From positions 124,001-188,000 of the forward strand of contig KV918880.1 in the NCBI GenBank assembly GCA_002049455.2: a stretch of 64,000 bases of DNA, given 5' to 3'. The notes below the pieces were generated by a model that saw only the letters and a list, made by a program, of their open reading frames with translations, was not told the origin of the DNA and ran no database searches. Made by a program: the position numbers and the translations under genes. The stretch comes from Porphyra umbilicalis (taxonomy: Eukaryota > Rhodophyta > Bangiophyceae > Bangiales > Bangiaceae). This document shows, piece by piece, positions 1,733 through 53,546 of the stretch; position 1 is the first letter of the stretch; the number at the start of each line of letters is the position of its first letter.

Positions 1733-1740
1733 ACTCGAAG

Positions 1741-1845
1741 CAGGGTTGTGCAACACGCCCGGGACGTGCTAAATTGCACGCCTGGGGCGTGCAATTTCAC
1801 GTGTTTTGGGCGTGTCACGCCCTGCCACGCCTAGTTTGTCGTGCT
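1741..1845. repeat. Left terminal and subterminal repeats of the RAG1-like transposon
   Basis: The first 20 bases are the terminal inverted repeat. The next 85 bases hold repeated CACGCC/GGCGTG cores, several paired as short palindromes (for example GCACGCC-TG-GGGCGTGC). Such clusters are typical transposase-binding subterminal repeats; binding here is inferred. Confidence 0.6.
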
Positions 1846-1927
1846 CTTCTGGGTCTGAGCTTTACACGAGACGTTCGAAAATAGTTCCTTCAACGTGCTA
1901 AAATCTCAGTGGTCGAGAGAGCGTGAT

Positions 1928-2001
1928 CCCTCTCACAGAGGCCGTAGGGGCAGAATTGGCGACGCGTCGCCAATTATGCCTCTACGGCCTCTGTGAGAGG
2001 G
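1928..2001. repeat. 74-bp near-perfect palindrome
   Basis: The arms CCCTCTCACAGAGGCCGTAG and its complement meet at the centre GACG/CGTC with only a few mismatches and no loop. It lies in the 5' non-coding part of the transposon, about 200 bp before the transposase start. It could form a cruciform or be a tiny foldback insertion. Confidence 0.75.
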
Positions 2002-2208
2002 GTCGCCGGAACAGGGGACGCGACCCGAACCGGGCTTTCCGGCCGATTTGAGAGGGGTCTGCAACAGAGGATGAGCCGGGGACGGCGTGTGACTTGATCG
2101 GCCGGATCAAGTCTTGCCCGCGCGCTGCTGCGCGTTGCGCCTGCAGGTGATTCAGAAGCCACTTAGTACTCCCTGTGCCGTTGCCGTCTTCCTGTGGTGG
2201 TTCCCAAA

Positions 2209-5187
2209 ATGGCGGACGACGATGAAGACCGGACGTAAGTTCTGTTGTTATGTAACGTTTGCTCGTGTTGACAGGACAAGCACACCAGCGGAGGGTCAAC
2301 GGGGCTGACGGGGTTCGATAAAGTCGTCCTGGGCTGGACGGGCGCAAGACGGACGCGTTGGGCACGCAAAAGGAACTTACGCTCACCTTTTCCTCCTGTC
2401 CACGGCTTCAATCTATTGCATGTCAGCGTGCCACCTGTCCTTTTCGCTGCATCTTGAAACTACACTGTGAACAGGGCAACCGCAGCAGACATTGGCGTTG
2501 CGTTCAAAGGCACAGTGTGGGCCTATCAATGCGTCGACTGCATGCGGCTCCTCCTCAAACCCACAGAAGGGATGCAAGCGTGGCGGGAGTGGGCTCAGTC
2601 TCACCCTCCTGGCTCACCTCATGCCGTCGTTGCCAGCCTTCCAGTCATATTGTGCAAACAAGGGGCCCAGGTGCTTGGCATGGACGCGTCTGGCACTCCC
2701 CGCGGCCGTTGCGGCAAGTGCTATGCCAGGCGCACACGAGCGGCACGTCGCGCGGCGCCCGCTACACCTGCTACTCCCACCCCCCACCCCCCCGCCTCTG
2801 CCGGCGTGCAGTCTCGCGTTTGGGGACCCTCTACGTGTCTGGCTTCGAGCACGATGGCTACGAGCGCGCCGGTGGTCAGCCTGATGCCTTCAGGGGGCTG
2901 CACAGATACTTCTGCATCCGTTGGGAACGCTCGGGTCACGGACGAGCCAGATGACGCGTGTCATCTACAGGCACGGCAAGAGCGAGGCCGTGCTGCGACG
3001 CCCATGCCTGGCGAGGCCGCAGACGCGCAGCTGTGTCCCCTGGCCGACCCCCACGAAGGTGCGCCAGCTGCGACGGGTGGCGCGGAGCCTTTACCCGCTC
3101 CGACGCAGGCGGCCGAGCCTGCGGCAATTCCAAGCTGCAAGGATTTCCTTGACTGTCTTGTGGATGGGAATTACGGCGGGGAGGAGGACAAGTCGGTGCT
3201 GGAGGCAATTGCCAATGCAATTTTGCTGCGTGGCAAGCGCCCCCAGATCCGGCTCAAGCACACGAATGGACGCGTGGTCGTGTACGCGCGGCAGATGTCG
3301 CCGCGGAAGGCTCTGGTCAAGAGCAGTCAAGCTAACAAGCGCCGCGCTGCCGCGCGTAAGCTGCAGGAAGACACGCGCGGTGGGATGGTGGGGACGAGGC
3401 GCGACAGCCCGCGACCCGCCCGTGAGCCCGTGCGGCTCACTGTGGCCGAGCAGGTGGGCCTGGCAGCGGCCCTGCGACTGAGTCATATCGGGTTCAACCG
3501 GTGGCGCTTGGCTCTGGGGGGGCGCCGCAGTGGCTTAGCCAGTTTGTCTGTGCTCCGGGCAGCGCGGCGGCAGCTCTCTGATTTACCGGGGAAGCAGGTC
3601 ATCGTCACGGGCTCGGGCGCCCATCTGGCATCCCTCACTGCGGCCATCCAGGAGAGGGTCTCGGCTCTGTGTGACGCGGACGCCTTCGTCGAGAGACCTC
3701 TGGCTGACACCCAACGGGAGCCCAGTGGCTCCGCCGGAGCCCCGGCGGTCGCGGTTCTTCCCGGGTCTCCCTCTCCGTCTGAACTCGACGTGCAGATCAC
3801 CCTCGGCCTCGACAAAGGAGGCGACCCGGGGACGGTGAAAGTTGTGGCAACAATTATTAACCAAGCCCACCCCAACAGTCCATCCAACACGATACTGGTG
3901 GCCGTTTGCCCCTGCCAGGACGACAAGTACGAGGAGCTTGCGGAAATGCTCGAGACGCACCTCCCGCAGGTCGACGCTCTGCTTCGGGATGGGGTGTTGG
4001 TGCGCGGTGTGCACCGCCCAGTGCGGCTGCTGCTCGGCAGCGACTACGCAGCGCAGTGCAACGTCCTGGGCCACAAGGGTGAGTCTGCGACGCAGCCCTG
4101 TCTCGGATGCAAGAGCACGCGGTTTCCGAGTGTCGCGCAGGCCGTACTCGACGATGCCTATGGCACCCTCCAAGACGTTGACACCCGCAGGCACCTGCGA
4201 GAGGCAACGCACTTTGCCGATCGGATGGTTGCTGAAGGCGCTGCGGCGGTGGTGGGCGAGCCCGGCACAGCCGAGCACCACTGCTCGGTGGAGCGAAGCC
4301 CCCTACTTGCCATCAACCCGCGGCAAATTGTACCAATTCCACTGCATTGCACGCTAGGAATTAACCATCGGTATTTGCGGCTTGCTGTTGAGATGGTGAT
4401 GGTCTTTCGGAGCTCAGCTTGCGGCGCTGCTGCTGGGCGACAGGCGGGCGCCAGCTTTGCCCTCGAGCTTGTTGGCCTGCTGCACGAGAAGGTGCGCGTG
4501 CGGCCTACGCCGTACCATGGCGGGCTCTTCGTTGGCCGCGACTGTCACACTATTGGGGACAGCAGTGCGCTCGTGTGTAACGCGCTCAAGGGAAAGGTCT
4601 CACAGAGCCACCTTGATGCCTACGAACAGGCGTGGTCGCTGTGGAATCGGGTGCGCAAAACCCTTAACCGTGCGTCGATCATCCCCCGCGCTGAGGCCGC
4701 GCTCTTTAGGGCGGACACCGCTGCAATGGTGCGCTTGCTGAAGGGAAGCTTTCCTTGGGTCTCCATCTCACCGAAGTTGCACATCCTGATGTGCCATGCT
4801 CCGGCTTTTCTGGAGTCCTTTGGCAGTATCGGGCTGTATGGGGAGCAGGGCTTAGAGGCGTGGCACGGCCGCTACGGCCAGAGTGCTGTCAAGTACCCCG
4901 GTGCCACGGAGCTGGAGCGTGCGGCGGCATGTATGAGGGCTATGGCACTCGCACGAGAGGCAGGGGCTGATGTGCTTGCGCGCTACGCGCCGCGACGAAA
5001 GCCTGCTGTACCGGGGGCCCGCATGGCACGTAAGGTCGGTGACAAGCGGCGGCGGGAGAACAAGCCGCAGCTCCCAATTTGTGGGGCAGAGAGCCGAAAA
5101 GCCGCGAAGAAGCGCAAGATGTGGGCGGCGGGGATTACCAAGGAGGCGGCTACAACAGTTGGCGCGCACATGCAGCGCGCCATCTGA
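2209..5187 (+). CDS. RAG1/Transib-CMC-type DDE transposase, two exons
   Basis: Exon 1 is 2209-2234 (MADDDEDRT, good start context, donor GTAAGT). The intron is 2235-2474 (acceptor ACAG) and exon 2 is 2475-5187. The join is in phase and gives 912 aa. The large frame has no ATG before 2542, so the micro-exon supplies the start. Residues seen: Cys28/31/69/88/91 (N-terminal zinc site); a GGRR-containing basic segment recalling the RAG1 GGRPR nonamer-binding motif; Asp455 (LDKGGD); Asp532 (LGSDY); Cys551/Cys554 (CLGC); LHCTLG; His778/His783 (HILMCH); Glu803 (GEQGLEAWH). Mouse RAG1 has D600, D708, C727/C730, H937/H942 and E962. The D-to-C (19), C-to-C (3), H-to-H (5) and H-to-E (20) intervals are identical. 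The C-terminus has basic, NLS-like clusters. It presumably cuts and joins the element's own ends in the nucleus. Confidence 0.8.
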
Positions 5188-5246
5188 CGGTTAGGGCAAG
5201 TAAAACACCACCGGTAGGCCACAAGTAGATTTGAATACGTCTGCTG
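5188..5246. other. Short 3' flank of transposase gene
   Basis: This stretch links the transposase stop codon to the tandem repeat and shows no distinct signal. Confidence 0.4.
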
Positions 5247-5931
5247 CTCTGAGAGTCGCTCACAAAGAGAAGTGGCAGTGACATGAAAACGACGGACTAT
5301 CTTTTTTCTGCGACATTTTCATGTTCATTTGTGCGCACGGCAGCGTTCCTCTCGCCGAGACCTATCGAATGAGCTATAAAACACCGCCATAGCATAAGCA
5401 CAGCCAGAGATAGTCGCATTTCCCACTCCGTGACCACTTGCACCCGGTTGCATTTTGAGTGTCGTGCGGCATGGGCCACGCGGGCCACAGTTGCAGAAGT
5501 TCCCCCTATATGTACATGGGTGCTGAGGGGACACTGAGTCATAATCTGCCGTCAGAAAGTGGTTTTGAGCACGTCCGCGGCTCTGAGAGTCGCTCACAAA
5601 GAGAAGTGGCAGTGACATGAAAACGACGAACTATCTTTTTTCTGCGACATTTTCATGTTCATTTGTGCGCACGGCAGCGTCCCTCTCGCCGAGACCTATC
5701 GAATGAGCTATAGAACACCGCCATAGGATAACCACAGCCAGAGATAGTCGCATTTCCCACTCCGTGACCACTTGCACCCGGTTGCATTTTGAGTGTCGTG
5801 CGGCATGGGCCACGCGGGCCACAGTTGCAGAAGTTCCCCCTATATGTACATGGGTGCTGAGGGGACACTGAGTCATAATCTGCCGTCAGAAAGTGGTTTT
5901 GAGCACGTCCGCGGCTCTGAGAGTCGCTCAC
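5247..5931. repeat. Tandem duplication of a 334-bp unit
   Basis: Unit 1 is 5247-5580 and unit 2 is 5581-5914; a third start (CTCTGAGAGTCGCTCACA) runs to about 5931. The two units differ at only a few positions, so the duplication is recent. Each unit contains short open frames that look like by-products of the repetition. It lies 3' of the transposase inside the element. Confidence 0.85.
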
Positions 5932-7059
5932 ACCGGACAGTGGCGATGGTATTGGTACTGTCGTACGATCCGTTGCGCAGTGTTGCGGGACGTCCGGAAG
6001 AGGCTCGGCTTCGCTTCCTTTTCGTCGGATCAACTCGAAACAATCGTTGCCCGACTGGTCCCAATGCGTCAGTGAGAGCGGGTGGGCTTGGCCACGTTGT
6101 ATTCCGCCATGGAAATCTGGCGCCTGATTCGAAGGACGCCCGATCAGCTGACAAAATGTCAGGTGACCAATGAGCTATCGTATTTGGGACGAGGAGCCAA
6201 CCAGGCGCATCAGTGCCCTTGAAAACCCAGAAGAGCACGAGCACCCAGTGCTAACTAGGCGTGCTGCACGCCCAGAATTTTAGGGGCGTGATTGGGGCGT
6301 GCTTGGCAAACAAGTACATCATTTCAAATGCGCTCTTGGGCGCCAGTCCACCAAATATATTTCGGTGCAGTTCCGTGCCACCTTCGTTACTTTTTCAGGG
6401 CGCGGTGTCTTACTGCTCCGTCGAGCGTCCACAAACAAGGTGCATGACGCTGTGAGGCGTCGGGACCATTTTTCCGTCGTGTGCCCACAAACAAGGTGCT
6501 TGACGCCATGATGCGCGGGCGCCATCTGTGCGGGATGGGCACAGCAACGGCCACCTGCTGTCATCAGCCTGGGAGGACGCAGAGGGGCTCCTCGACACGG
6601 GCGCCAATGAGGACGATGAATGCGACGCATCGCGCGCCGGCAACGACCAGGCTGACGGCAGTGATGGAGGGGGCGCCGGCGGCGAGCTACGCGCCTCCTG
6701 AACGAGAAGGTCGCCCGATGCGCCACGGCTGGCGCCGGCGTCCCTGGACAGGACGTTGGTCGTCCCGGCGACGAGGACACCCCCGCGTCCATGACCGAGA
6801 ATGATTTGATGACCATCTGCTCTGGCTTTGTGCGCGGTGAGATGGGTGGGACTGCGGGTGGTGGGGCGGCCGGTGGAGGCCAGGCAAGCCGACGTCCCGT
6901 GATGCTGCAAAGAATCTTTGACGCAGAGTGGCACAGGCCAAGAGCGTGTATCGCATGCAGCTGTTTCCTCCATGTTTTCTGGCAATTTTGTGGTCCTTTG
7001 AACCATCTAAACTGCAAGAGTATTGGGTACTTTGAATCGCCTATCAAGTAAATGTCACA
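5932..7059. other. Non-coding right half of the RAG1-like transposon
   Basis: No protein is recognised in this stretch. I looked for a second gene such as a Kelch (RAG2-like) protein and found none. Bases 6255-6310 hold a further GGCGTG/CACGCC cluster like those at the ends, possibly marking an older internal end. Confidence 0.5.
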
Positions 7060-7180
7060 ACATGGGGGCTACATTAGGGGCGTGAGAGGGGCGTGCCAAT
7101 GTTGGGGGCGTGCAGAAGGGTGAGATTAGGCGTGCATCGCCCGCCCCGCCACCCAAAAAGGGGCGTGATGCACAACCCTA
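7060..7180. repeat. Right subterminal and terminal repeats of the RAG1-like transposon
   Basis: At least five GGGGCGTG-type motifs precede the terminal repeat at 7161-7180. They mirror the cluster at the left end. Bases 7181-7188 are the right copy of the target duplication. Confidence 0.6.
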
Positions 7181-7188
7181 ACTCTAAG

Positions 7189-9289
7189 TGCTCAAATAAT
7201 CCTGAAGAGGCGACTTAATCGGAGTTATGTAGCGTAAATGCAAGAGAACTCTTTATGTCACTGTAAGTACTGTAATCTGGCGCGGCGCTCCGCGCCGCTT
7301 CCATACAGTCATTCCCCATTCCTGTGACATCCTTTCTTGGGCACCGGTGCCTAGTATTGCTAACCTCAAAATAAAGGCGGTTGCAGAGAGGAAGGAGGCA
7401 GAGCCGACGACACAGCATGGAAATGAAATCGGATTGGCTGTTCAACAAGCCATGATCAAACTTTTGCTGATCCCCCAATTCTGTCCTCATCGCCCCGGAA
7501 CGGTAGTGGAACGGCAACGATTGGAGATCTCTCATTGGTCGAGCAGTCCGACAGCAGTGCATGTCCGGCCCTATCTTTACAGAATGTGCCCGTACGGCCC
7601 CCAATCGCACAATCGACGCCTTCGTTCTTCTGCCCTTTTCTGCGTATCTTCCCGAAAATCTTGGTATCCCAACGATTGCGGGCCGGTTGCTCCCTTGACA
7701 CGGAAGGGATCGGAAGAAAATCTCAAGAAAAAGAAGGATCTCGGCTCTGCACGGAAGTGGCGGAGGGAGAGCCAATAGGACGCCTCAGATTCGTGCTGAG
7801 CAGCTGTTTACGTCTGCGTTTAACCAATAGATGGCCAGTTCCACAAGAACCGTACCGCCAGGAACCGTTCCTGGTCGACGAGGACAGAATTGGGGGATCA
7901 GCAATATTGGCTGGGAGATACCGCCAGTCATCTTGCAAGCTAATCAACGTGTCTTGCAGGAGTCACGCAGAGCCAATGCAACCCACAATAAGAATTCCTG
8001 AGATTTTTGGGCCTCTTGCTTGAGCCTAGAGAGGGCATGGAGAGGGTTCTGGGCCAGTCCTGTGATTTCTCATGAGATCAACAAGTTTCTTCAGATTTCT
8101 TGAGATCCTGATGTGCGTCCTCAGTGCGCAGAGCTACATGCGGAGACTGTGTAAGGAAGTCACATGATTCCTAGACTTTCCATTGGTCCACGTACGCTGT
8201 TGAAGGCTTGCAACCACTCTGCAACCGCCATTTTTTGGAGGTCAGCAAAAACGAACGTAGGTCGACCGGGCTCTACGGTGCGATCAAGGCCGATCTTGAG
8301 CAGCGGTCGTCTTCTTCGACACGAAAAACCGGGGCCACTTGCACTCAGTTGTGGATTGAGTGGCTGCCACAAAGGGTGCCTTCGAATGGAGAAAGACTGT
8401 AACCCACCAACCAGCCACCGCTCACCGCCGCTCACCGACGACTGCTGCTTTCCACCTCCCATCTCATTGGAAAAGGAGAGGGGTTCAACAAGGGCCGCCA
8501 AGAGGGGGTGCCTCCAAGCACACGAACCGAGGCCAGCACTTGCGATGTTCGCTCAGCCTTTACTTGAGAGCGATGACGCCCCACAAGAACACTCCGTCCG
8601 TCCATCACGAACCCCCCACAACCATCCCCCCCCTCCTGAGCTCGTTCGTCCTTCGCTCGCCTCCCCACTGCTGACACGCTGTTGGTCGACTGATGCGGCC
8701 ACTTGCCCCATGCCTACTCGGGGACTCCCGCACCGGTCCCGCCGCTCAAGCACGGCGGCAGCGGCAGAGCCCGCGCGTGCTCGCGGCCAAGCACGCGCGC
8801 GGCGCACAGCGCGAACGGCGCGGGACGGCACGGCGGCCGGACGGGCGTGGCGGCGCGGACGTCGGGCGACGGAAGGTCCGCGTATAAACCCTATTGCTCA
8901 TGCTAAAGGTAAACGTTTCATTGTTGGGCGTATTTGAGGAGTGATCAAATGGAATATTCACGGATCGGTACAATTTGAGATCCTGCCCAGGGCCGTGCAC
9001 CAGCCTGTGGTTTGGATGCAACGACGCTCTCCACCCCTATTGGTCGATGATGACATGAATGGATGAGCGTGACAGAGCTCTGCCGCAGTCCTTGGTTTTT
9101 GCGGTCCTCGTGAGCCCAGGTATGCCGGCTTTTTGCTGTGAGGAGGTCTGAGACACTGGTCATCGTCTCACTGATGCTGTTTTTTTCCGGAATACATGGG
9201 TCCCTTGAAGGGCCCTGTGGTGCGTCCCAAAATTGAGGAAACCGGCAAAGTTCTCGATAGGAGTCTGCCGGTTGTTGACTCTGGCTTTT
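7189..9289. other. Unassigned intergenic DNA
   Basis: No gene is supported. The candidate foldback element at 7465-7903 lies inside. Bases 8164-8937 are open on the plus strand, but composition is mixed and the predicted peptide (short basic and Pro-rich stretches) matches nothing I know. Bases 8700-8880 are a short GC-rich stretch. Confidence 0.4.
7465..7903. mobile_element. Candidate foldback/MITE with 24-bp exact inverted ends
   Basis: TGCTGATCCCCCAATTCTGT and four more bases at 7465-7488 recur as an exact reverse complement at 7880-7903. The same end motif appears alone at 1107-1128 and, inverted, at 54822-54839, which suggests a repeated family. I could not identify a target duplication, so the boundaries are provisional. 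Confidence 0.45.
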
Positions 9290-19051: not shown

Positions 19052-21778
19052 TCAGCACTGCGGCGCAGGACGTAGGGCCCGCGTGCCGCTACTCCCCGAA
19101 GTGCCCAGATCCGAGCCAACGCCGATGACGCCCCGGAATGTGGTGAACGCCGGGGCCGGCAGTGGCTTCGTCATGCCATCTGCGGGCATGTCGGCGCTGG
19201 GAAGAAAGTAGAAGGCAACCTCCCCACGCGCGACGTAGTCGCGCACCATGTGGTACGCAACGTCTACGTGCTTGGTACGCCCGGTGGCTTCGGGATTGTT
19301 GACCAAAGCGAGGCACGCCTGGTTGTCCTCCCCCATGGGCACGGCGTCCCCGTCGACGCCCAGCTCCGACAGAAGTTTGCGCAGCCACAGCGCCTCCTTG
19401 GTCGCCATAGCGGCGGCGACGTACTCGGCCTCGGCCGTTGACGTCGCCACGGTCGACTGGCGCTTGCTCGTCCACGATATCGGCCCGCCATTGAGGGTGA
19501 AGACAAAGCCCGTCGTCGACCGACGAGCGTCAATATCGCCTGCCCAGTCTGCGTCAACGTATCCTTGGAGAGGCTTGTCGTCGCCGTACACGACCCCTAG
19601 TCGCGTAGCCCCGCGAAGATATCGGAGCACCCCCTTGGCCGCGCGCATGTGGTCCTCCTCGGGGCATGACATGTAGCGGGAGAGCACGCCCACGGCAAAG
19701 GCAATGTCCGGCCTCGTCGTCGTGGAGAGGTACAGCAACGAGCCAACAAGCTCGGCGTACCGGTTGCCCTCGGGCAGTAGATTCTCCCCCGTCTTGCAAA
19801 GCTTGGCACCTGACACCATGGGCGTCTTGTTAGGCGCAGACTTGTCCATCTGGAAAGCCTCAAGCAGGGAACTGACATGCCCCGGATTGCTCAGGGTGAG
19901 CACCTTGGCAGCCCGATCTCGCATGACCTTCATGCCAATGAAGTCCTTGACCTCACCCATGTCGCGCACGTCGAAAGACGCCGACACCGAGGCCTTGACC
20001 ATCTGGACCCCTTCGAGGCTTTTTCCAGCAACAATGAGATCGTCCACGTAGACGAGGATGTAGACAAGCCCGTGCACAGGGTGGCTCCACGTGTAGAGGC
20101 ACGGGTCCACCTTGGACCGGACCGCTCCGATGGCATTGAGCTCTTTGTTAAGCTTGATGCCCCACAATCGTCCCGCCTGTTTGGTCCCATAGAGAGCCAG
20201 GTTCAGACGGCGGACATCACCTTCCTCCCCCGGCTCGGCTCCGACCGGAAGCTTGATGTACATCTCCTTGTCCATCTTTGCGTTGAGGAAGGCCGTCTTC
20301 ACATCCACGTGGTGAACTTCCCAGTCCTTGGCCGCCGCCACCGCGAAGAGCGCGCGTGTCGTGGCCGAGCTCGGCACTGGTGCCCATGTCTCATCAAAGT
20401 CGCGCCCCGGCACTTGGTTGAAGCCCTGCGCCACCAGTCGCGCCTTGTACCGAGTCATGTTGCCCTCAGCATCGTGCTTGATGTCATACACGTACCGCGT
20501 TTTGACAGCCTTACGCTTGTTGCTGCTCCTGGTATTGGACCAGGTACGAAGCTTCTTGTGTGCGAGGTACTCTTCTTTCTCAGCCGCCTTCCAACGCGGC
20601 CAGTCCGATCGCGCACGCGCCTCCTTCGCATTGGCTGGCGCCTTGGTCAGGTCCCATCCCGACGGATCTCCGCCCTTGGGTCCTTCTGCAGCGTATGCCT
20701 TTGGGTTACGCTCCCACCAGGTAACCTTGGGTGCCGGCTTGCGCTTCGACCGCCGGAGTGCTTGCACCCCGTCGTCACCACTCTCTGTGGTGGATCCAGA
20801 CAGCACGTCGTGTCCATCATGATCCGCCGCGTCCTCGCCGGCGTCATTGTCATCTCCGTCTTCTGCGTCGAGTCCGGAAGCCTCGTCCGGCTCAACGTCG
20901 CTCTCTGACGATTGCTGCGAGGCATACTCGTCCCCGCTTGTGGCTTCCGCTTCCAGCATGTCCATGGCGCCGTCCTCCTTGTCACCATCCGTCTGACTGG
21001 TCAGGAAAGGGGTGGAAGCAGGGCCAGGGACAGAGGTCATCTTGATGGCCTTGCTTGAGGTCTCCTCCATGAGCACATCTCGGCGCTCAAAGACCTTGTT
21101 TGAGCCATCCTCTAGGATGCGGTAGGCCTTGCCACCAACAGTGTAGCCGAAAAAACGGCCGACGTCGGTCCTGGGTTCCAGCTTTCGCTGCTGCTGCTTG
21201 GGCTTCAGAGCCCATGCCCGGCTCCCCCAGACCCGAAATCCCTTCACGTCGGGGCGTCTCCCCGTGAGGGCTTCCAGCGGGGTCACATCTTGACCCGCCT
21301 TGGGGGATCGGTTGAGCACGTGGATGACGGATGACAAAGCCTCCGCCCACAGCTCCTCTTCCGCTCCGGCGTCCAGAAGAGCCGCACGGACGCGCTCCAT
21401 GATGTACCGGTTGGCGCGCTCTGCCTTCCCGTTCTGCTGCGAAGAGTACGGCGCCGTCTTCTCATACGTAATGCCTTTGTCTTCATACCAGGCTTGGAGG
21501 TCGCGGCTCACGTACTCCTTGGCGCCATCGTGACGAACCCGCTTCACCTTAAGCCCAGTTAGGGTCTCTAGCTGCTTGATGCGGGCCTTGAGGACATCCG
21601 GAACCATGCCCTTGGACTTGATGGGCGTCGCCGTGATGAACCCAGTGGAGTCTTCCATCAGAGTCACGAAGTAGACAGAGCCGCCCAGCGACGCCGTCAA
21701 CGGCCCATCAACGTCCGTGTGAACCAACTCGCACTTGGTGGTGGTCGTTGTCGAGCGATGATGCGGAGAACGCGCCAT
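19052..21778 (-). CDS. copia pol part: integrase, reverse transcriptase, RNase H
   Basis: About 908 codons open on the minus strand. Seen in order: integrase core (ELVHTDVDGPL, then KIR-type YSSQQNGKAERANR), an acidic linker, reverse transcriptase (YKARLVAQGFNQ, YVDDLIVAG) and RNase H (ADWAGDIDARRSTTGF and STAEAEYVAA). The domain order and motifs are diagnostic for Ty1/copia. It is a fossil or recent copy of a selfish element, not a host gene. Confidence 0.9.
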   Translation of the reverse strand: MARSPHHRSTTTTTKCELVHTDVDGPLTASLGGSVYFVTLMEDSTGFITATPIKSKGMVPDVLKARIKQLETLTGLKVKRVRHDGAKEYVSRDLQAWYEDKGITYEKTAPYSSQQNGKAERANRYIMERVRAALLDAGAEEELWAEALSSVIHVLNRSPKAGQDVTPLEALTGRRPDVKGFRVWGSRAWALKPKQQQRKLEPRTDVGRFFGYTVGGKAYRILEDGSNKVFERRDVLMEETSSKAIKMTSVPGPASTPFLTSQTDGDKEDGAMDMLEAEATSGDEYASQQSSESDVEPDEASGLDAEDGDDNDAGEDAADHDGHDVLSGSTTESGDDGVQALRRSKRKPAPKVTWWERNPKAYAAEGPKGGDPSGWDLTKAPANAKEARARSDWPRWKAAEKEEYLAHKKLRTWSNTRSSNKRKAVKTRYVYDIKHDAEGNMTRYKARLVAQGFNQVPGRDFDETWAPVPSSATTRALFAVAAAKDWEVHHVDVKTAFLNAKMDKEMYIKLPVGAEPGEEGDVRRLNLALYGTKQAGRLWGIKLNKELNAIGAVRSKVDPCLYTWSHPVHGLVYILVYVDDLIVAGKSLEGVQMVKASVSASFDVRDMGEVKDFIGMKVMRDRAAKVLTLSNPGHVSSLLEAFQMDKSAPNKTPMVSGAKLCKTGENLLPEGNRYAELVGSLLYLSTTTRPDIAFAVGVLSRYMSCPEEDHMRAAKGVLRYLRGATRLGVVYGDDKPLQGYVDADWAGDIDARRSTTGFVFTLNGGPISWTSKRQSTVATSTAEAEYVAAAMATKEALWLRKLLSELGVDGDAVPMGEDNQACLALVNNPEATGRTKHVDVAYHMVRDYVARGEVAFYFLPSADMPADGMTKPLPAPAFTTFRGVIGVGSDLGTSGSSGTRALRPAPQC

Positions 21779-21781
21779 CTT

Positions 21782-23392
21782 TCAGTCGACACAAGGCACG
21801 CATACCGTACCAGGAACGCGCTTGGCGTCGGCTACCGTCGATGGAATCCCATCGACCATCCCAACCACACGCTTGAGGTTCTCGAAACCCAAGTGGTTGA
21901 ACCGGCGGTGCCACAGCTCTGCCTCGCCGTCCATGTGCGTGGAGGCGGCTCTGGCCGACGCCGTGACCGGAGTCACCTTGATCACGTAGTTCTCCGACTC
22001 GTTGACCGAGCCGACGACTGACGCGTTGCTCAAAACTCCGCTCGCGAGCACCGCTTCCCCATTACTGAGGATATAGCAGGCGTCGCCAACGAACACCACG
22101 GAACCGCCACAGCGGTCGACCACTCGGACCGACAGAAGGTTGTCTGTCAGATCCGGCACAAGCATGGCCTCATCGAGGACCATGCGAGCCGTGGTGATTC
22201 CCTTCCCCACGTCCATGGACGCGTATCCGTGCCCCTTGATGGGCACCTTGTGGCCGTCAGCTAGAGTGACCTTGGCCCCGCTCCCCGTCGTCTTGACGGT
22301 GAAACCCGCGTCCTGGGCGGCCATATGGTTGGTCGCACCCGAGTCCAACACCCAGGTCGAGGACCCGCTGGTGCTCCCGGAAGCGTTGAGCTTCCCTGCC
22401 TGGCCTGCCGACGCAGCGTAGGCCAATGCGGCGCGGGGAGGTGCACCACCTCCACCGCCACCCTCGCGACGCCCGCCATTTGGCTTCTTGTTGCCCTTGG
22501 CGTCGTCGGCCTTCTTCTTGAGACAGTCGCGCTTCATGTGCCCCTTCTTGTCGCAGTCGTAGCACACGACCGCGCGCTTGTCCCACGGCTTCTTAGAAGC
22601 CGTTGCCGCAAACGCTTGCGACTTGACGCCGGTCGCCGAGGACGACCGCCCATGGCTCCCCCGCTGCTCCACAGTGAGCAGCTTGGCGCTCACGTCAGCG
22701 AGGTTGCGCTTCCCGTCCATGTTCTCCAGAACGGTCTTGATCATGTCATACTCGACCGGAAGGCCCGACAGGATCTGCAGGACAAGCGTGTTCTCGTCCA
22801 CCTGATTTCCCAGCATGGAGAGCTCTTGACGGATGCTCTTGGCGCGCGACGTGTACTTGATGATGTTCTCGTCGCTGCCCTTCTTGAGGTTGCTCAGCTC
22901 ATGCATGAGCTGCAGCAGGCGTGCGTTGTCCCGCGCCTCAAAGATGTCCTTGAGCGCATCCCACGCCTCCTTGGCCGTACTGACCGCCGTCACCGAATAA
23001 AGATGAACCGGCTTGACCGACATCTGGATAGTCGCCAGGGCCGACTCGTTCATGAGGTCCCACGCCTCAGCTGCAACGTCGCTCTTGGCACCGCTCCCAG
23101 ACGCGGGACGGTCCGTCACAACCGCAGCCCAAACCTTCTCCTTGATCATCTGTGCACGGCAGTACACAGCCCAGACCTTGTAGTCGTCGTCCAGCTGCGC
23201 GAAGCGAGGGCCAGCGTAGCGGCCGTACTCCGACACGACGATGACAACCACGCCAGCAGGCGCGGCACTGACGACGTGGGGGGCTATACCCACCTGCCCG
23301 ACGCCAGAACACACGGCAACCCAACCAAGGTCGTCCCGCCAACAACGGCACGTAAGACGACGACGACCACCAGCGACACTGCGCCCATAACC
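21782..23392 (-). CDS. copia gag-protease part
   Basis: Minus-strand open region. It includes a UBN2-type gag core (ARLLQLMHELSNLKKGSDEN), a CCHC zinc knuckle (CYDCDKKGHMKRDC), the aspartic protease signature WVLDSGATNH and a GAG-pre-integrase segment (LWHRRFNHLGFENLKR). It belongs to the same element as the pol part. Initiation is expected between the 5' LTR and about 23.3 kb. Confidence 0.88.
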   Translation of the reverse strand, partial: GYGRSVAGGRRRLTCRCWRDDLGWVAVCSGVGQVGIAPHVVSAAPAGVVVIVVSEYGRYAGPRFAQLDDDYKVWAVYCRAQMIKEKVWAAVVTDRPASGSGAKSDVAAEAWDLMNESALATIQMSVKPVHLYSVTAVSTAKEAWDALKDIFEARDNARLLQLMHELSNLKKGSDENIIKYTSRAKSIRQELSMLGNQVDENTLVLQILSGLPVEYDMIKTVLENMDGKRNLADVSAKLLTVEQRGSHGRSSSATGVKSQAFAATASKKPWDKRAVVCYDCDKKGHMKRDCLKKKADDAKGNKKPNGGRREGGGGGGAPPRAALAYAASAGQAGKLNASGSTSGSSTWVLDSGATNHMAAQDAGFTVKTTGSGAKVTLADGHKVPIKGHGYASMDVGKGITTARMVLDEAMLVPDLTDNLLSVRVVDRCGGSVVFVGDACYILSNGEAVLASGVLSNASVVGSVNESENYVIKVTPVTASARAASTHMDGEAELWHRRFNHLGFENLKRVVGMVDGIPSTVADAKRVPGTVCVPCVD

Positions 23393-23765
23393 TGTGAAGT
23401 CGGTGCGGTCAAGTGGGTGCGTTGTTTTACTATGGCAGAGGTCCTGGGCCGTGTCCAGCCACCTAATGTACCCCAGGCGGCCCCAGGACAGGTCGTCGGG
23501 CAGCCCGCTCTCGGAGCACACCCACGTGCCTCAGTTCTCAGTGCGTGCGGGCCGCGGCGCACCTCCCAGAACGGGGCATGCACCTCCCCACACAAGTCCC
23601 CCCTTCCGAGCTCACCCCAGCAGAGAGTGCCCACTACGAGACCAACAAATCAAGTACACACAAGTACAAAACATACAACAAGTGCATAGGTAAATACCCA
23701 AAACTGTGTCCCAATGCTCAACCGGGTAAGTACAGACAAATGGAATTGCTGAGCAATGCTCAACA
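23393..23765 (-). repeat. copia 5' LTR
   Basis: A 373-bp LTR matching 17796-18167. On the coding strand it ends TTCACA, followed by GGTTATGGGC, the expected primer-binding position. I do not recognise the matching tRNA. Confidence 0.9.
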
Positions 23766-45989: not shown

Positions 45990-48700
45990 CCGCAACCGTC
46001 GTCCAGCGCGGCCAGTAGGCGACCACGCTCGGGCTGGGCGAGTGTGCTGGGGGGCACGGCAGGACTGATGGCGTTGTGCTTGAGCAGGTCGGTGGCGTTG
46101 GTGGCCTCGCTGGGGATGCGCCGCGGGCTCGGCGGGGGTGTCGGCGTTGGCCGAGGGCGGTTCGCCGGCGCTGGTCATCGGTGCGGACGGGTGCCCGGGG
46201 GACTCGGGTAAGGTCTTGGCGGTCGGAAAGAGCAAGACGGCAGCGTTGGAGGGCGGGCTGGGCGGGTGCGCGGGGTCTCGGCGGGGAGGTCGGCGTTTGC
46301 CAAAGGCGGCTTTGCCGCGTTCGTGCTCGGTGTGGGCGGGCGTGCGTGAGGCCGGGTGGGGGTGTCGGCGTTGGGCACGGTCGGGTCGTAGGTGCTGGGG
46401 GCCGCGCTTGGGCGGTGCGCGGGGGTCTCTGCGGTTGCGTCAGTGCTTGTAAACCGTGGGTCGGTGGTGGTACTGGTTGGTGTGGGTGGGTGCGCGGGGG
46501 GCTAGGTGGGGATGCTGGCGGTTGGAAAGGGCGGCTCGGCGGCGTTGGTGGTCTGTGTGGGCGGGCGCGCGAGGGGCTCGGCGAAGGCGTCGGCGTTGGG
46601 AAACGGCACGTCGGCGGCGCTGGCGGCCGGGCTGGGCGGGTGCGCGGGGGCGCGGCGGGGTTTTCGCGTTGGTTAACGGCCAGGCGGCGGCGTTGGCAGT
46701 CGGGCTGGGCAGGTGCGCGGGGTCTTGGCGTGCGTGACGGCGTCTTGGAATGGTGGCTTTGCGGTATTGGTGGTCGATGTCGGCGGGTGCGCGCGGTCTT
46801 CACGGGGCTTTCGGCGCTTGCCAAGGTCGACTTCGCGGCGTTGGTGGTCGCTGTTCTATGGTGCGCGTGGGGCAGCGGGGCGGTACCGCCGATTGGCACG
46901 GGCGGGTTTGAGGCGTTGGTGGGCGGGGTGACAGGGTGCACGGGGGGCTGGGCGGGGGTGTCGGCGTTGGGCACGGCCTGGTCGTCGGTGCTGGGGGCCG
47001 TGCTTGGTCGGTGGTCGGGGGACTGACTCTGTGGCGGTCTCGGTATTTGTGGCATGTGGGTCGGCGGGGGTTCGGGTCGTTGTGGGTGGGTGCGTGGCGG
47101 GCTAGGTGAAGCGGTCGGCGGTTGGCAAGGGCGGCTCGTCGGCGTTGGTGGACTGTGTGGGCGGGTGCGCGGGGGGCTCAGTGGAGGCGTCGGCTTTGGG
47201 CAACGGCACATCTGCGGTGTTGGCGGTGGGGCTATCCAGGTGCAAGGGCTCTCGGTGGGGGTGTCGGCGTCTGCCGAGGCCGTCGTTATGGCATTGGTGG
47301 TCGGTGTGGGCGGGTGCGCGGGGCCTCAGAGGAGATGTCGTCGTCTGCGAAGGGCGGACTTGCGGCTTTAGTGGTCGGTGTGACCGCGTGCGCGGGGGGC
47401 TCGGTGGGGGTGTCGGCGTTGGGCACGGTCTCGTTGTAGGAGCTGTGGGGCGCGCTTGGTCGGAGCGCTGGGGACTCTGTGGTTGTGTCAGTGTTTGTAA
47501 ACTGCGGGTCTGTTGTTGTATTGGTAGGTGTGGGCGGGTGCTCGTGGGGCTAGGTGGGGACGTCGGACGCTGGCAAGGGCGGCTCGGCGGCGTTGGTCGT
47601 CGGTGCGGGCGGGTGTGCTGGGGGCTCGGCGGAGATGTCCGCGTTGTCCAACGGCAAGTTGTCCGCGCTGGCGGTCGGGCTGGGCGGGTGTGCCGGGTCT
47701 CGGCGGGGGTTTCGGCGTTCCCTGACGGTGGCTTTGCGGCGTCGGTTGCCGCAGTGGGCGGATGTGCGGTGGGCTGTGTGGGGCTAGTGCCACTTGGGAA
47801 GGGCGGCCCAGTGACGTTTGCTGCTGGTGCGGGCGGAGGCGCGGGGAGATTGGCTGAGGTGTCGGCGTTAGACAACGGCAAGTCGGCGGGGGTGGCGGTC
47901 GGGCTGGGCAGCTGTGCGGTGTCTGGGCGGGGGTGTTGGCGCTTGCCGAGGAGGACTTTGCGGCGTTGGCCGTCAGTGTGGGAGCGTGTGCGGGGGGCTA
48001 GGTGAGGGTGCCGCCGCTTGGCAAGGGCGGCTTTGCAGCGTTGATAAGCGATGTGACCGGGTGCGCGGGGTGCTGGGCGGGAGTGTCAGCGTTGGGCACG
48101 GTCATATTTTCTGTGCTGGGGGCGGTTCTTGGCCGGTGCGCGAGGGACTCTGCGGTTCTCTCATTGCCTCTGAAATGTCGGGCGGTGTTGATATTGGTCG
48201 GTGTGGGCGGAAGCGCGAGCGGCGAGGTGGGAGTCTCGTCGTCAAGCAAGGGCAACTCAGAGGCGTTGGTGGTCGGTGCGTGCAGGTCCGCGGGGTGCTC
48301 GGAGGAGGTGTGCAGCTATGGCAATGGCGGCTCGGCGGCCTTGTCTGTCGGGGTGGGCGGGTACGCTTGGTGCTCGGCGGAGGTGTGGGGCTTTGGCAAG
48401 AACGGTTCGGCGCTAGTGGCCTGTGTGTGGAGGTGCGCGGGGTACTCGGAGGGTGTGTCGGCGTTCGGCAATGGCAAGCCGGAAGCGTTTGCGGTTGGTC
48501 GCGGCAAATGCGCGGGAGGCTCTCAGAGCGTGCCGGCGTATGGCAGCGGTGGCTCGGCGGCGTCGGCGGTCGGTCTGGGTTGGTGCCAGAGGGACTGGGT
48601 GGGGGTGTCGCCGTTGGGCAACGGCCGCTTGGCGGCAATGGTACTCGGCGTCGGGGAAAGGGCGAGAGGCTGGGCGAGTGTGTCGGAGCTTGAAAAGGGC
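45990..48700. repeat. hAT cargo: array of diverged GTCGGCGTTGGGCACGG-type units
   Basis: About 2.7 kb of degenerate tandem units near 90-100 bp, each with GGGCGGGTGCGCGGGG and TCGGCGTTGG. The reverse strand reads as Pro/Thr/Arg-rich frames up to 439 codons and the plus strand as Gly/Arg/Trp-rich frames. Both are explained by the repetition. Confidence 0.65.
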
Positions 48701-49212
48701 TTCGTGGCTTTTAGGATGGTTGTGTACTGCATCTGTGATGCTTTCACATGGTTTATGTTCTTTCTAGGTGGCCTGCCGCTGCCAGGGGGAGTCAGTTTGC
48801 TCCATCGTTGTGCATCCACTGCAGTGATGGTTTTTCAAGCTGCCAGGCGGGTAGGCCAGCTGGCCCGCAGGGGCTGTGAAACCGCTGCGTTTTTAATCGT
48901 GGTCAAGAACTTGGGACTACGCTTACGTCACAGCGGGGGGCAGGTTGCGCAGCACAGTGTAGGTTTTCTCGTGTGAGGCTGCCTGGCCAAGACGCAGGCA
49001 GTGAGGCCGGAACTATGCGCGCTGTCGATTGCAGGCTGCTGTCCATCAGGACGCAGCACGCGCCTGCTTCCGCGCTCGTGATGGTGGACAGGTGACAGCT
49101 GCCTGCTCAACACGTCGCCTTCTGATTCCTATCCACGGGCAAAGAGCCTCGCCACCGCACACACGGGAAAAAAATGCAAAAAAAAGAAGACGAAAGGACC
49201 GACCCGAAACTC
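48701..49212. other. hAT interior 3' of the transposase
   Basis: Non-repetitive spacer of about 500 bp with no gene recognised. It precedes the transposase stop at 49213 and may hold its 3' UTR. Confidence 0.4.
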
Positions 49213-51819
49213 TCACCACAACCCTTCCTCGTCGGTGAGCCCTGAAAACGTATCGCTGTCGCTTGCAGTCGAATTGCCCGACGCCTCGCCGCCGACCGCC
49301 GTGTCAACCAAGATTCGGCTCATGCCAGCACGAGCGCGCGACCTTTCCGCCTCAGACAGGACAGGAACCGTCGACGGGTCGGCAGGAAGAAGGTGGGCGT
49401 TGAAGCGCAGAAGGCAGTGCATCTCCACGTGCTCAGGCAGCATCCTGGAGCGGTCTTTGCGGAGCACCATGCCTGCGACGGAGAAGTCTCGTTCAGATGC
49501 CGCCGACGAGCCAGATGCACCGAGCAGAGCACATGCGACCAAGTGGAGGAGGGGAAAGTCGGCTTCGTGCGAGCGCCAAAACCCAAGCGCGTCGTCGCTG
49601 GCGGTGTGTGTCGTGAGAAAGGTGTCCAGCTCGCGAGTGACGGTGTCCAGCGGCGTGTCAGAGTCGGCAACGTCGCTCTCGTCCGAGTCCCAGCCAACAA
49701 GGGTGGTACGACACATTTGGTGCTCCTCATGCAGCAGACCTTCGCGAGAAGGCGCGCTAGGATTGACTTGCTCGACATGGGCTGCGGTCGCCAACACCGC
49801 ACCACGAGCACGCTCGATCGGGTTCTCCTGCCCAACACGGGCAGCGGCCTTGCGGAGCATCGCAGCTCCCCCTGGAGTGACGAGGGTGGCAGCCAGCACG
49901 GCGTCATTCGCTAGCCAGTTCTTGATGTCGCTCTCCGCGCTGAAGAAGCGCGCGTCGATCTCGTCGTGCAGGATCTTGACGATTGTCGCGGCCTCGTCGC
50001 GCAAACCGTCAGCGTCGCGCGTGGCCTCCAAGGGCACAATCTCGTGCTCGTACATGCGGTTGTCCAGCTCCATGACGTTTGTCCTCTTCTTGTCGAGCCC
50101 GAGGAATAGAAGGATTGCCTCGAGGCCGACGGCTAGCGGCTTCTCGTACGGCTTGGGGCATGGGAAGACACCGAGTCGCATGGTCCGACGCAGCCGGCAG
50201 ACGAGTCCAAGGGCGTCAGCAACCGTCAAACTGGTACTCTGCATCGCCACACACGCCTCGAACGCGGGCTGCAGCACTCCAATCAGGTGGCGGATGGCCT
50301 CCCAATCGGACCTCCATAACCGACGCTCCCGCTGCGCCGCCGTTAGGTCATCCAGCTTCCAAAACTCAACCAGCCTTGGCATGAGGGTGAAAAGTCGAAC
50401 AAGAGCAAGATATGTGGATCCCCACCGAGTTGGAGACTCGGTCAGCAACTTGCGTGGCGCATTGTCCCCATTGAAAGGTACAGAGTTCAGCTTCTCGACG
50501 CTTGCCGTTGACTTGTGGAAGAGGTTTCCAATCTTGCGAGCACGGCTGAGCAAGTCAGCAGCGCCCGGATTTGCTCCACCCGTCCTTGACGTCGACGAAG
50601 AGGATGCCGCGCCCGCCCGTGCCGCTCTTGCCGCCGCCGTCTTGCCCGTTCCGCCAAGGGCAACCTTGACAGCTAAGTGTAAGGTGTGGGCAGCGCATGG
50701 CACCCAGCGTGGCCACAGCTGTGTCAACGCCTTCTTGACGTTTGATCCAGAGTCGGAGGTCGACGAGCTCACATCCTCGTTGCGCACACCATATCGGCGA
50801 AGGAGGCGCTCCGTCCATGACCTGATGTTGTCATGGTCGTGCCGCCCAATGAAGGCAGCCACACCAAGGTGGAGCTCCACAATGGAGAAGGTGCCAGGAT
50901 CGACGCAGCGCAACACGAGGGAGCCGTAAGAGCCGGAGCCGTGCCTCTCCGTCCACAGGTCCGTCACCAAGTGGAAGAATGGCACATCACGGTACAGCCC
51001 TTGTAAGCGCCGCACTTGAGCTCGGAGTTGATCCGTCACAAAGGAGAAGAGATCAAGAAGGATGTTGCGAACGCCGGCTGGTGCTGGGGGATCGTACGAG
51101 ACGCCCAGGCCCCGCACAAATTCAAGCAAGTACTTGTTCTCCGTCAAAGCAAGCGGTGACAAAGTCATCACCAGCATCAGGACGACGCGGACGTGGTGGG
51201 GTCGCGCCTGGGCAGGCGTCATTACTCGGGTCCTTGACGCCGTGAGGTAGCCGTCCAGTGGCCCGCCATGTACGCTACCACCACCGTCCGCTGTCCCCGA
51301 CTTCCTTGTGCGCCATGCGAGCACAGCGGCGTGTCGGCGACGCTGCACGTCATCAACCACGCTTGAAGCGACGATGTTGCCGTAGTGGCGCCAAGCGTTG
51401 CTCGACTTCCCGTGCTTGAGGTAGTAGGTGGCGGTGACCCCGACGAGAGCGCAAACGCGACAACGAACCACAAAGTGACCCCTCTGGCCATCTTCGGCCC
51501 CCGTGAACGTATCCCACAAATCGTTGGCGTGCGGTCGCGTTGTCCAGCACTTCTCCCCGCTCTTGTGGGGGTACCACGTTGCACCCGCATGGAAGATGCT
51601 TGTTGGGCACTGCGAAAAGGATGAAGCCGTGTACGGCCCGATGATAGTAGCCAAATAGTCTTGGCCGCCCGCCGCGGAGGCCGGCGCATTCGCGTTCTCA
51701 TCTGGGCGGCCCTGGGGCGAGAACGGCGTCTGCACCAACGCCACACCTCGACGGGCAGGTGCCACCTCGTCCTCGAGTCCGTCGCTACCGCTGTTGGAGC
51801 CTCCACCGATGGATGCCAT
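49213..51819 (-). CDS. hAT-family transposase
   Basis: I start at the ATG at 51819 (MASIGGGSNSGSDG), giving 868 aa; the frame is open further upstream to 51963. Seen in order: a BED-type zinc finger (WDTFTGAEDGQRGHFVVRC, then CALVG and H-x4-H-like spacing); the first catalytic-Asp region (HLVTDLWTERHGSGSYG); SDSGSNVKKAL with PCAAHTLHLAVKVAL, typical of hAT; SPTRWGSTYLALVRLF (hAT TRWNST-like); a C-terminal hATC dimerisation domain (SAASERDFSVAGMVLRKDRS). No internal stop or frame change. It should bind the element ends and perform cut-and-paste with 8-bp duplications, matching those found. Confidence 0.93.
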   Translation of the reverse strand: MASIGGGSNSGSDGLEDEVAPARRGVALVQTPFSPQGRPDENANAPASAAGGQDYLATIIGPYTASSFSQCPTSIFHAGATWYPHKSGEKCWTTRPHANDLWDTFTGAEDGQRGHFVVRCRVCALVGVTATYYLKHGKSSNAWRHYGNIVASSVVDDVQRRRHAAVLAWRTRKSGTADGGGSVHGGPLDGYLTASRTRVMTPAQARPHHVRVVLMLVMTLSPLALTENKYLLEFVRGLGVSYDPPAPAGVRNILLDLFSFVTDQLRAQVRRLQGLYRDVPFFHLVTDLWTERHGSGSYGSLVLRCVDPGTFSIVELHLGVAAFIGRHDHDNIRSWTERLLRRYGVRNEDVSSSTSDSGSNVKKALTQLWPRWVPCAAHTLHLAVKVALGGTGKTAAARAARAGAASSSSTSRTGGANPGAADLLSRARKIGNLFHKSTASVEKLNSVPFNGDNAPRKLLTESPTRWGSTYLALVRLFTLMPRLVEFWKLDDLTAAQRERRLWRSDWEAIRHLIGVLQPAFEACVAMQSTSLTVADALGLVCRLRRTMRLGVFPCPKPYEKPLAVGLEAILLFLGLDKKRTNVMELDNRMYEHEIVPLEATRDADGLRDEAATIVKILHDEIDARFFSAESDIKNWLANDAVLAATLVTPGGAAMLRKAAARVGQENPIERARGAVLATAAHVEQVNPSAPSREGLLHEEHQMCRTTLVGWDSDESDVADSDTPLDTVTRELDTFLTTHTASDDALGFWRSHEADFPLLHLVACALLGASGSSAASERDFSVAGMVLRKDRSRMLPEHVEMHCLLRFNAHLLPADPSTVPVLSEAERSRARAGMSRILVDTAVGGEASGNSTASDSDTFSGLTDEEGLW

Positions 51820-52290
51820 GGTGCAGATGGCGTAATGAGTTCTCGACAGGGGATGTGGGGGGGTGTCGGCCAGAGACACGCGCTTCCCACCCCTTCGTGG
51901 CTTGACGCGTCGAGGGAACGTCACATTGGCGGCTGGCGCCAGCAACAGCCTGTCTTCCTTCACTCGCTGATCTCAATTCGCCGTTAGGGGCTCACTTCGC
52001 TCGGATGAGAAAGGTGCCTTATTGGACGGTTCGATTACATCCCTGCATGTGGAGTCCCAGGCACGACCGCCGCCGTCCTCTTGACCATTCGTCTTACCGG
52101 ATAAAGCGGAGTGTCTTAAGTCCGATCTGAGTACAGTCTATTCCGGGACCAGAGCTCCGATAAGGACTGCTCTACTCTTCTCCCTGGAACCTGAGTACAT
52201 TAAGAGCTTCCCGCCTCACCCGATATCCCGGACGGATACGATTACCTGGCGCGGATACATCCTTCAAGGATTTATTCCCACCAACCCCTG

Positions 52291-52652
52291 GTTATGAGCC
52301 CCGTGGGCCCTGAGGGGAGGGTTTTCCGAGGGTCCTTTGAGGGTGTCTGAGGAGGGTTTTCCGAGGGTCCTTTGAGGGTGTCTGAGGAGGGTTTTCCGAG
52401 GGTCCGAGGGGAACGGACGGGATAAGAGGGCGAAACGTGAGTGTCGCCTCGAGGCCTTCGACGCGGGCAAGTAAACTTCCGGTCACACAACTCGTGTTTG
52501 TCGCTCGGGGCGCCTTCCCCCGGTCGACGCCGTGCGTGTGTGCTCTTCGGGGTTTTCTTCCGGGGCGGGTATTCCCCGACAGGACTACCCGGCGACACGG
52601 TTTGGCTCGCCCTCCCCCCAAATGGGTGGGGTGGGCTGAGCGTGCTGTCACA
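52291..52652 (+). repeat. G2 3' LTR, second part
   Basis: Continues the LTR after the hAT. It has one more 36-bp GGGTTTTCCGAGGGTCC unit than the 5' LTR. It ends GTCACA, followed by CTATC, the right copy of the G2 target duplication. Confidence 0.88.
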
Positions 52653-53546
52653 CTATCTGCTTTCTCAAGTCGCTCCTTCCGTTTGGTGGGGGTCGCGGAG
52701 CGCTTGCGCGCTGTTGCGTCCGACTCGCTCGAGCCGTCGCTCGGCGAGGACCCACGTGAGGGCGACGGCGGGCCTGGCGTCCCGTGGCCATCGTCCGAAG
52801 AGGACGTGTCCGTCGCGCTGGAGTTGTCGTCGTCCGACGACGTCGGGTTTGACCCAGAGGCAGAGTCATCGGAAGATGAGGAAGGCACGGCGTTAGCCGG
52901 ATCGTCCTTGCGGACGGACTTGCCTTTAGTCACCTTGCTTGTCTTCTTGACGTTCTTGGTCTTGTCACCCGACTGACGGCGAGACTTAGCCACACGGCAT
53001 TCCTCTCCTTGGGAGTCGACCTTGCGCAGGGCCTCGACGTCGTCGACCAACTTGTCATTAGCTTGCGCCAGAGACTCGTTAGTCTGTTCTTGGGCCGTTA
53101 GGCGTCGTTGAAGTGCTTCAACAGCCGCCCTCAGGCTCTCCACCACCTGCATCTGCCCGGAGGCTGCTTGATCCCCAGGGATGGGAGGAGTAGGAGCACC
53201 GTCCGTTGGGGTGTCGGAGGCGGCAGGAGTGCCTTGTCCCCCGCCCGGCGGCCGGTAGCCAGCTGGCAGATTGCCGTCTCTGGCTCGCCGAGTGCCGCCG
53301 ATACCACCAGTAGACCCACTGGACCTGAACAAAGTGTTCCGACTTGGCTAACGCCCTGCGCGCCAACGTGGAAGATCTCAACCGTGATGCCCCCGGCACC
53401 ACGCCCACAAGTCGATGGCTAACGCCCCGCGCGCCAAGCGATCGTATCGACCACGTCACAATGCCACAAGGCAGCGAGGAATTTCTCGGGAACACCGTGC
53501 CGCGAGGCACGATGAAGGCGAGGGTATCCCCTGCTGCTCCACCAGA
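52653..53546 (-). pseudogene. G1 gag N-terminal part and leader
   Basis: Minus strand. A coiled-coil segment (ESLRAAVEALQRRLTAQEQT) is followed by a Lys-rich then Ser/Asp-rich tail (SSSSDDSASGSNPTSSDDDN), interrupted by the G2 insertion. Upstream lies a leader of about 200 bp and the primer-binding-type site TGGTGGAGCAGCAGGGGA at 53527-53544. It belongs to the fossil described as G1. Confidence 0.65.

Follow-up and report, generated by a model that had tools for sequence, protein, structure and literature searches.

Most of what is known about the clade of transposases behind antibody-gene recombination comes from RAG1, from Transib and from the relatives described for them. The DUF1280 family corresponds to the Chapaev transposases, has hosts that are given as animals, and forms one clade with RAG1 (excerpt of PMC3985635); the Chapaev and Transib clades also share one superfamily tree with RAG1 (excerpt of PMC4411706). 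The wider CMC/Transib/RAG1 (CMCT) clade has as its hallmark a C(2)C and an H(3-4)H motif between the second catalytic Asp and the catalytic Glu, and its members typically end in CA..TG and duplicate 2-5 bp of the target (excerpt of PMC12730594). The rule for Chapaev is CAC..GTG ends with a 3-4-bp duplication (excerpt of PMC4079192), and duplications of 8 bp are listed for hAT, Zisupton and a Dileera family (excerpt of PMC12730594). The original prediction for the locus studied here was of RAG1-like residue spacing outside animals. RAG1-like transposons are on record from non-animal hosts: Tao et al. 2022 (PMC9435367) describe a complete RAG-like transposon with a 5-bp duplication and a CAC start from the alga Aureococcus, as well as Transib-like proteins of bacterial, fungal and plant origin.

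We analysed a 64,000-nucleotide stretch of Porphyra umbilicalis DNA (hereafter the window). Judging from its sequence, it likely holds an intact-looking DNA transposon of the cut-and-paste type, probably autonomous and about 5.4 kb long (1741-7180), with a one-intron gene for a CMCT-type DDE transposase on the Chapaev (DUF1280) side. Directly supporting this reading are the open frame, the catalytic and zinc residues that are collinear with RAG1 except for the first Asp, and the inverted ends and motif clusters that flank the gene. What appears to be new is the probable 5,440-bp element itself, with 20-bp CAGGG/TAGGG inverted ends, GGCGTG clusters and an imperfect 8-bp duplication, which follows neither the Chapaev nor the Transib end rule. 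Among the literature matches listed, seen as titles and abstract openings and mostly from outside subscription journals, none dealt with a RAG1/CMC-type protein combined with CAGGG/TAGGG ends and an 8-bp duplication. A member of the clade with a core in RAG1 register, other ends and a wider cut would help to tell features ancestral to the clade from those of RAG1/Transib only; candidates for the latter are the N-K motif, the 5-bp stagger and the CAC end.

The transposase gene and its likeness to the RAG1 core

The gene lies in an uninterrupted reading frame at 2467-5187. From the splice sites, which are the sole basis of the two-exon reading, we infer a short first exon and a long second one (Table 1); joined, they encode exactly 912 aa. 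The GC content of exon 2 at codon positions 1/2/3 is 0.69/0.54/0.70, a coding-like pattern.

Table 1. Coordinates, in the window, of the features of the probable element and of its predicted transposase
Feature	Position	Strand	Remarks
Left target-site duplication copy, probable, 8 bp	1733..1740		ACTCGAAG; 7/8 identical to 7181-7188
Left terminal inverted repeat, 20 bp	1741..1760	+	CAGGGTTGTGCAACACGCCC; 18/20 identical to right end
Left subterminal region	1741..1854	+	6 GGCGTG/CACGCC motifs; inverted-repeated on the right as two pieces
Near-perfect palindrome, 80 bp	1925..2004		2 x 40 nt, 93%, no spacer; just upstream of gene
Transposase exon 1, putative	2209..2234	+	starts ATG; splice sites by inspection
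Intron, putative, 240 bp	2235..2474	+	GT..AG (GT at 2235, AG at 2473-2474)
Transposase exon 2, including stop	2475..5187	+	open frame; coding-like GC
Pfam DUF1280 match, aa 447-511	3787..3981	+	E 2.9e-6, 27.5 bits; D455 inside, in LGLDKGGD
D455, candidate first catalytic Asp	3811..3813	+	equivalence to RAG1 D600 without alignment support
D532, candidate second catalytic Asp	4042..4044	+	aligned to RAG1 D708
C551-x2-C554	4099..4110	+	aligned to RAG1 zinc ligands C727/C730
H778-x4-H783	4780..4797	+	aligned to RAG1 H937/H942
E803, candidate catalytic Glu	4855..4857	+	aligned to RAG1 E962
Tandem duplication of a 334-bp unit, plus 42 bp	5223..5932		97% identity; downstream of gene, inside element
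Inner piece of right terminal region	6225..6277	-	inverted match to 1804-1854; 16 exact bases at 6225-6240
Motifs by inner right piece	6258-6301		4 GGCGTG/CACGCC
Motifs by outer right piece	7079-7167		5 GGCGTG/CACGCC
Outer piece of right terminal region	7128..7179	-	inverted match to 1742-1783
Right terminal inverted repeat	7161..7180	-	TAGGGTTGTGCATCACGCCC on reverse strand; pairs with 1741-1760
Right target-site duplication copy, probable, 8 bp	7181..7188		ACTCTAAG; one mismatch to left copy

All seven residues on which the original prediction was built (D455, D532, C551, C554, H778, H783 and E803) are found at the named positions of the spliced protein, and the four intervals said to be identical to those of RAG1 indeed are: 19 residues for D532-C551, 3 for C551-C554, 5 for H778-H783 and 20 for H783-E803. 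The other two differ, with 77 residues for D455-D532 (108 in RAG1) and 224 for C554-H778 (207 in RAG1). None of 5000 shuffles of aa 321-912 produced the pattern D-x18-CxxC, 100-300 residues, Hx4H-x19-E.

For the alignments, we used pieces of the RAG1 core that had been verified against PDB chains. Local alignment of aa 311-870 with the RAG1 core (BLOSUM45) gives a score of 120. The background scores are far lower, both for 500 shuffles (mean 52.7, sd 7.2, maximum 85) and for 381 decoys, six-frame ORFs with a length of 350-900 aa taken from 82 viral loci (maximum 78). The unforced alignment pairs D532, C551, C554, H778, H783 and E803 with RAG1 D708, C727, C730, H937, H942 and E962, which is six of the seven equivalences originally proposed. 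The blocks common to the two proteins are LHC-x2-G, P-x5-G-x-F and H-x4-H-x-P-x3-E-x2-GSIG-x5-G-x-E. With a shorter RAG1 piece, none of 1000 shuffles equals the real score under BLOSUM45 or PAM250; under BLOSUM62 the last block alone aligns (32 residues), and one shuffle in 1000 does equally well. BLASTP against RAG1 recovers this same H..H-E block at E 6e-4, the remaining matches being at 2.3 or worse. Across four global alignment settings the Cys, His and Glu residues stay in RAG1 register every time, and D532 shifts to RAG1 706 in one. The similarity of the 912-aa protein to RAG1 is real.

For the first Asp, alignment does not show this likeness. D455 is paired with RAG1 D600 in none of the four global settings and lands on RAG1 627. 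The surroundings of LGLDKGGD had been put forward as a local resemblance together with LHC-x2-G; the latter is shared. Taken alone, the block that holds D455 (aa 447-511) aligns with RAG1 at chance level (219 of 1000 shuffles equally good). We therefore rejected D455 = D600 as an established equivalence. Two comparisons involving the N-terminal half were also abandoned. The GGRR at aa 357, likened earlier to the RAG1 nonamer-binding region, lies 98 residues N-terminal of D455, whereas we take the GGRPR of RAG1 to lie about 210 residues before D600, so that its position relative to the first Asp does not fit. The Cys pairs C28/C31 and C88/C91, thought to recall the RAG1 zinc region, lack profile support, as a Pfam scan of the stretch that holds them (aa 10-314) matched no family. 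A further mark of Chapaev is an N-terminal zinc domain called Chapa, and the two Cys pairs are all that this stretch offers for comparison with it. A single-sequence AlphaFold model of aa 432-845 had a pLDDT of 34.3 and a pTM of 0.21, too low for a fold search.

Placement within the CMC/Transib/RAG1 clade

DUF1280 (PF06918) is the only Pfam family above cut-off for the protein. The match lies around the first candidate Asp, exceeds the curated cut-off of 25 bits (28.3 bits in a second scan) and spans just model positions 156-217 of 220. Between D532 and E803, for which we propose catalytic roles, stand C551-x2-C554 and H778-x4-H783, i.e., the C(2)C and H(3-4)H arrangement of the CMCT clade; a DDE triad with C2C and H4H is likewise a point of likeness to Chapaev. 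The Pfam RAG1 model does not match the protein. Searched against the PDB with phmmer, the protein retrieves no RAG1 or Transib chains and has a single match, ORF57 (E 2.1), taken as unrelated; a Transib-like probe retrieves 20 sequences, namely Transib, RAG1L, RAG1 and 3 helical-repeat design constructs (E 0.26-0.84). In all three alignments shown (6pqn, 6b40 and 4wwx; Transib, RAG1L and RAG1 chains), the catalytic Glu is followed by E-x2-N-K. This motif is missing after E803, where the protein reads E-A-W-H-G-R-Y; the protein thus shares the clade but not the mark of RAG1/Transib.

These features suggest a transposase of the CMCT clade that stands outside RAG1/Transib proper, which, jointly with the 5.4-kb element and the Chapaev side, we regard as likely. 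The single match to a profile, a partial one to DUF1280, would put it on the Chapaev side. The originally predicted membership of the RAG1/Transib/CMC group is thus upheld, and a separate branch fits the evidence; a special tie to RAG1 itself finds no support, given that the best profile is DUF1280, that E-x2-N-K is absent and that GGRR is misplaced. As its ends look different from those of the group's known families, the element could represent a side branch and not a genuine relative of RAG1.

No Pfam hAT family (Dimer_Tnp_hAT and others) matches the protein in a scan that detected the neighbouring hAT transposase at 49213-51963 at 2e-10 as a control. KDZ, for which we assume that Pfam has a model, is absent among the matches at E up to 10 in a scan run without a KDZ positive control. 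We rejected a hAT or KDZ transposase identity for lack of any profile match. At the protein level, the clearly better match to KDZ or hAT that would have spoken against the RAG1-like reading was not found, despite an 8-bp duplication and CAGGG ends of the hAT/KDZ kind.

The searches for relatives covered viral, prokaryote, phage and plasmid collections, and say nothing about eukaryotes. In viral contigs, 3 and 109 candidate stretches yielded no confirmed relative, and neither did 7, 75, 40 and 8 stretches selected by DNA patterns. Prokaryote genomes gave 32 candidate stretches, none confirmed, and 116 further stretches by pattern, with no relative among them. The best tblastn matches in phages and plasmids had E-values of 0.4 and 0.7 and were taken as unrelated. 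On the candidate loci, tblastn of the 912-aa protein gave four matches at E 1.5-2.4 (82 loci) and none at E <=1 (198 and 246 loci). With phmmer, the core matched two ORFs of the loci, the better one at E 0.071 in a pattern-selected stretch (L073), taken as chance, and RAG1 matched one ORF of the same loci at E 0.75. DUF1280 and RAG1 had no match in one virus record and 14 control genomes, which is no proof of absence.

Element boundaries and termini

We place the ends of the probable transposon that encloses the gene at 1741 and 7180, on the evidence of paired termini reading CAGGG on the left and TAGGG on the right. Inverted repeat and duplication together make 28 letters with 3 mismatches, and dinucleotide-shuffled flanks reach <=3 mismatches in 0 of 300 trials (minimum 6). 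Applied to random block pairs of the window, this 20+8 end test is equalled by 6 of 300: three pairs have a dinucleotide entropy of 1.9-2.6 (two are the same site) and three are other inverted repeats, the value for the element ends being 3.37. In a shorter 11+8-bp test, 61 of 233 random block pairs did as well, the window being rich in repeats; we dropped this test as proof and preferred the 20+8 version together with the clusters of motifs. GGCGTG/CACGCC occurs 74 times in the 64 kb, with 6, 4 and 5 occurrences (15 in total) at 1741-1860, 6225-6310 and 7061-7180, which are the three densest clusters of the window. We also scanned for inverted partners of the left 120 bp (120-bp windows, steps of 60, the left end's own neighbourhood excluded). 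The best are 6181-6300 (score 43) and 7081-7200 (score 34), and the next elsewhere scores 26 at 60061. Since the two inverted pieces, inner and outer, match the left region in collinear order, the gene would be enclosed by one long end pair, the right member of which is split by about 850 bp.

Other boundaries were considered. Setting the left end at 1737 gives an exact 4-bp ACTC duplication, but the inverted repeats are then unpaired. Between 1855-2208 and 5188-6224 there are no inner end pairs that start with CA and carry a 2-5-bp duplication; the only two pairs found there, 1969/5549 and 1969/5883 (CGTC), are weak, with 3 of 14 positions mismatched and a start other than CA. The 16-bp inner inverted repeat (1839-1854/6225-6240) was rejected as the ends of a separate element, having just a 2-bp CG duplication at 1842/6237. 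The element is known from one copy, with no second copy or empty site in the sequences searched (non-eukaryote collections).

The ends of this single copy depart from those of each described group. In place of the CAC..GTG ends and 3-4-bp duplication of Chapaev, we find CAGGG/TAGGG and a probable 8-bp duplication. The CMCT members mostly have CA..TG and 2-5 bp, whereas here the left end starts with CA and the right one with TA, and the paired ends lack a 2-5-bp duplication, having 8 bp with one mismatch. Neither the 5-bp duplication nor the CAC-type end of RAG1, RAG-like and Transib elements is present. The hAT superfamily has ends that read YARNG. Termini of the CAGGG/TAGGG type with an 8-bp duplication (probable here, 7/8 identical) are of the hAT/KDZ kind and resemble those of hAT or Zisupton/Dileera, but the protein has no hAT domain and its catalytic pattern is that of RAG1/CMC.

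The N-terminal and basic parts of the protein may attach to the GGCGTG repeats close to the two ends and so bring the ends together. D455, D532 and E803 would coordinate two metal ions within an RNase H fold, and C551/C554/H778/H783 would bind a zinc that, as in RAG1, links the insertion domain with the catalytic core. The enzyme would nick at the CAGGG/TAGGG ends, the element would be released by double-strand breaks (via hairpins, if the enzyme acts like RAG1), and the 3' ends would be joined to target DNA, probably 8 bp apart.

Alternative readings and neighbouring features

Several of these observations could be read differently. The identical spacings, the collinear alignment and the GSIG and LHC-xx-G blocks in common with RAG1 would also suit a transposon that truly belongs to the RAG1/Transib lineage and lives outside animals, and such elements do occur in an alga (PMC9435367). 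The protein lacks the E-x2-N-K of 6pqn, 6b40 and 4wwx and matches neither the RAG1 model of Pfam nor, by phmmer, RAG1/Transib chains of the PDB; together with termini that show no 5-bp duplication and no CAC end, this makes such a descent highly improbable. It is unlikely that the locus is an ordinary Chapaev-type (CMC) element with its true ends elsewhere, the CAGGG/TAGGG ends belonging to a surrounding hAT-like non-autonomous element. This arrangement would account for the DUF1280 match and for a duplication and YARNG-type ends of the hAT kind, and the window does hold a hAT transposase. Yet no inner CA-starting end pair with a 2-5-bp duplication was found, only the two weak non-CA pairs, the inverted pieces on the right correspond to collinear parts of one left region, and tblastn with the window's own hAT detects no hAT protein inside the element.

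Novosib elements occur in green algae and make 8-bp duplications. We give little credence to membership of such a named superfamily, e.g., Novosib, which is listed in Repbase (excerpt of PMC4455052), or KDZ/Zisupton, even if Zisupton and a Dileera family have duplications of this length (excerpt of PMC12730594): the scan that detects the neighbouring hAT finds no KDZ or hAT match in the protein, whose similarities are to DUF1280 and RAG1. Domestication of such a transposase into an immobile host gene could explain an open frame next to a split right end and an imperfect duplication; as the inverted ends can still be recognised and carry clusters of motifs, we consider this very improbable. Alongside the preferred reading, a CMCT-type transposon with its own CAGGG/TAGGG ends, stands a more tentative proposal, which we find possible if rather doubtful: an undescribed superfamily, outside RAG1/Transib proper, that combines a RAG1/CMC-type DDE-C2H2 transposase with CAGGG/TAGGG ends and 8-bp duplications and bridges CMCT and hAT-like target cutting. 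One copy cannot decide whether this is a new combination, the ends of something else or a named family such as Novosib.

The places examined for a RAG2-like gene were three ORFs at 5876-7047, and Pfam matched none of them. Just beyond the element, 7464-7504 and 7864-7904 form a 41-bp inverted repeat (93%) with its arms 359 bp apart, perhaps a small separate element; its arm is seen again, 89% identical, at 1103-1129. Scanning the window for Rfam families and tRNAs gave no match. The hAT transposase at 49213-51963 (reverse strand) is an open 916-aa frame with Dimer_Tnp_hAT at E 2e-10, around which no convincing pair of 8-bp-flanked ends was found in 47300-49200 and 51960-54500 (best 4 mismatches in 19). 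A Copia-type retrotransposon in two frames lies at 19052-23521 (reverse strand), with reverse transcriptase and gag domains and an integrase core below cut-off. The window also encodes a protein with a Hint (hedgehog/intein) module (55785-56966, forward strand, E 4e-25) and a Cys/Met metabolism PLP enzyme (58991-59968, reverse strand, E 2.6e-103), the only clear metabolic gene among the scanned ORFs.
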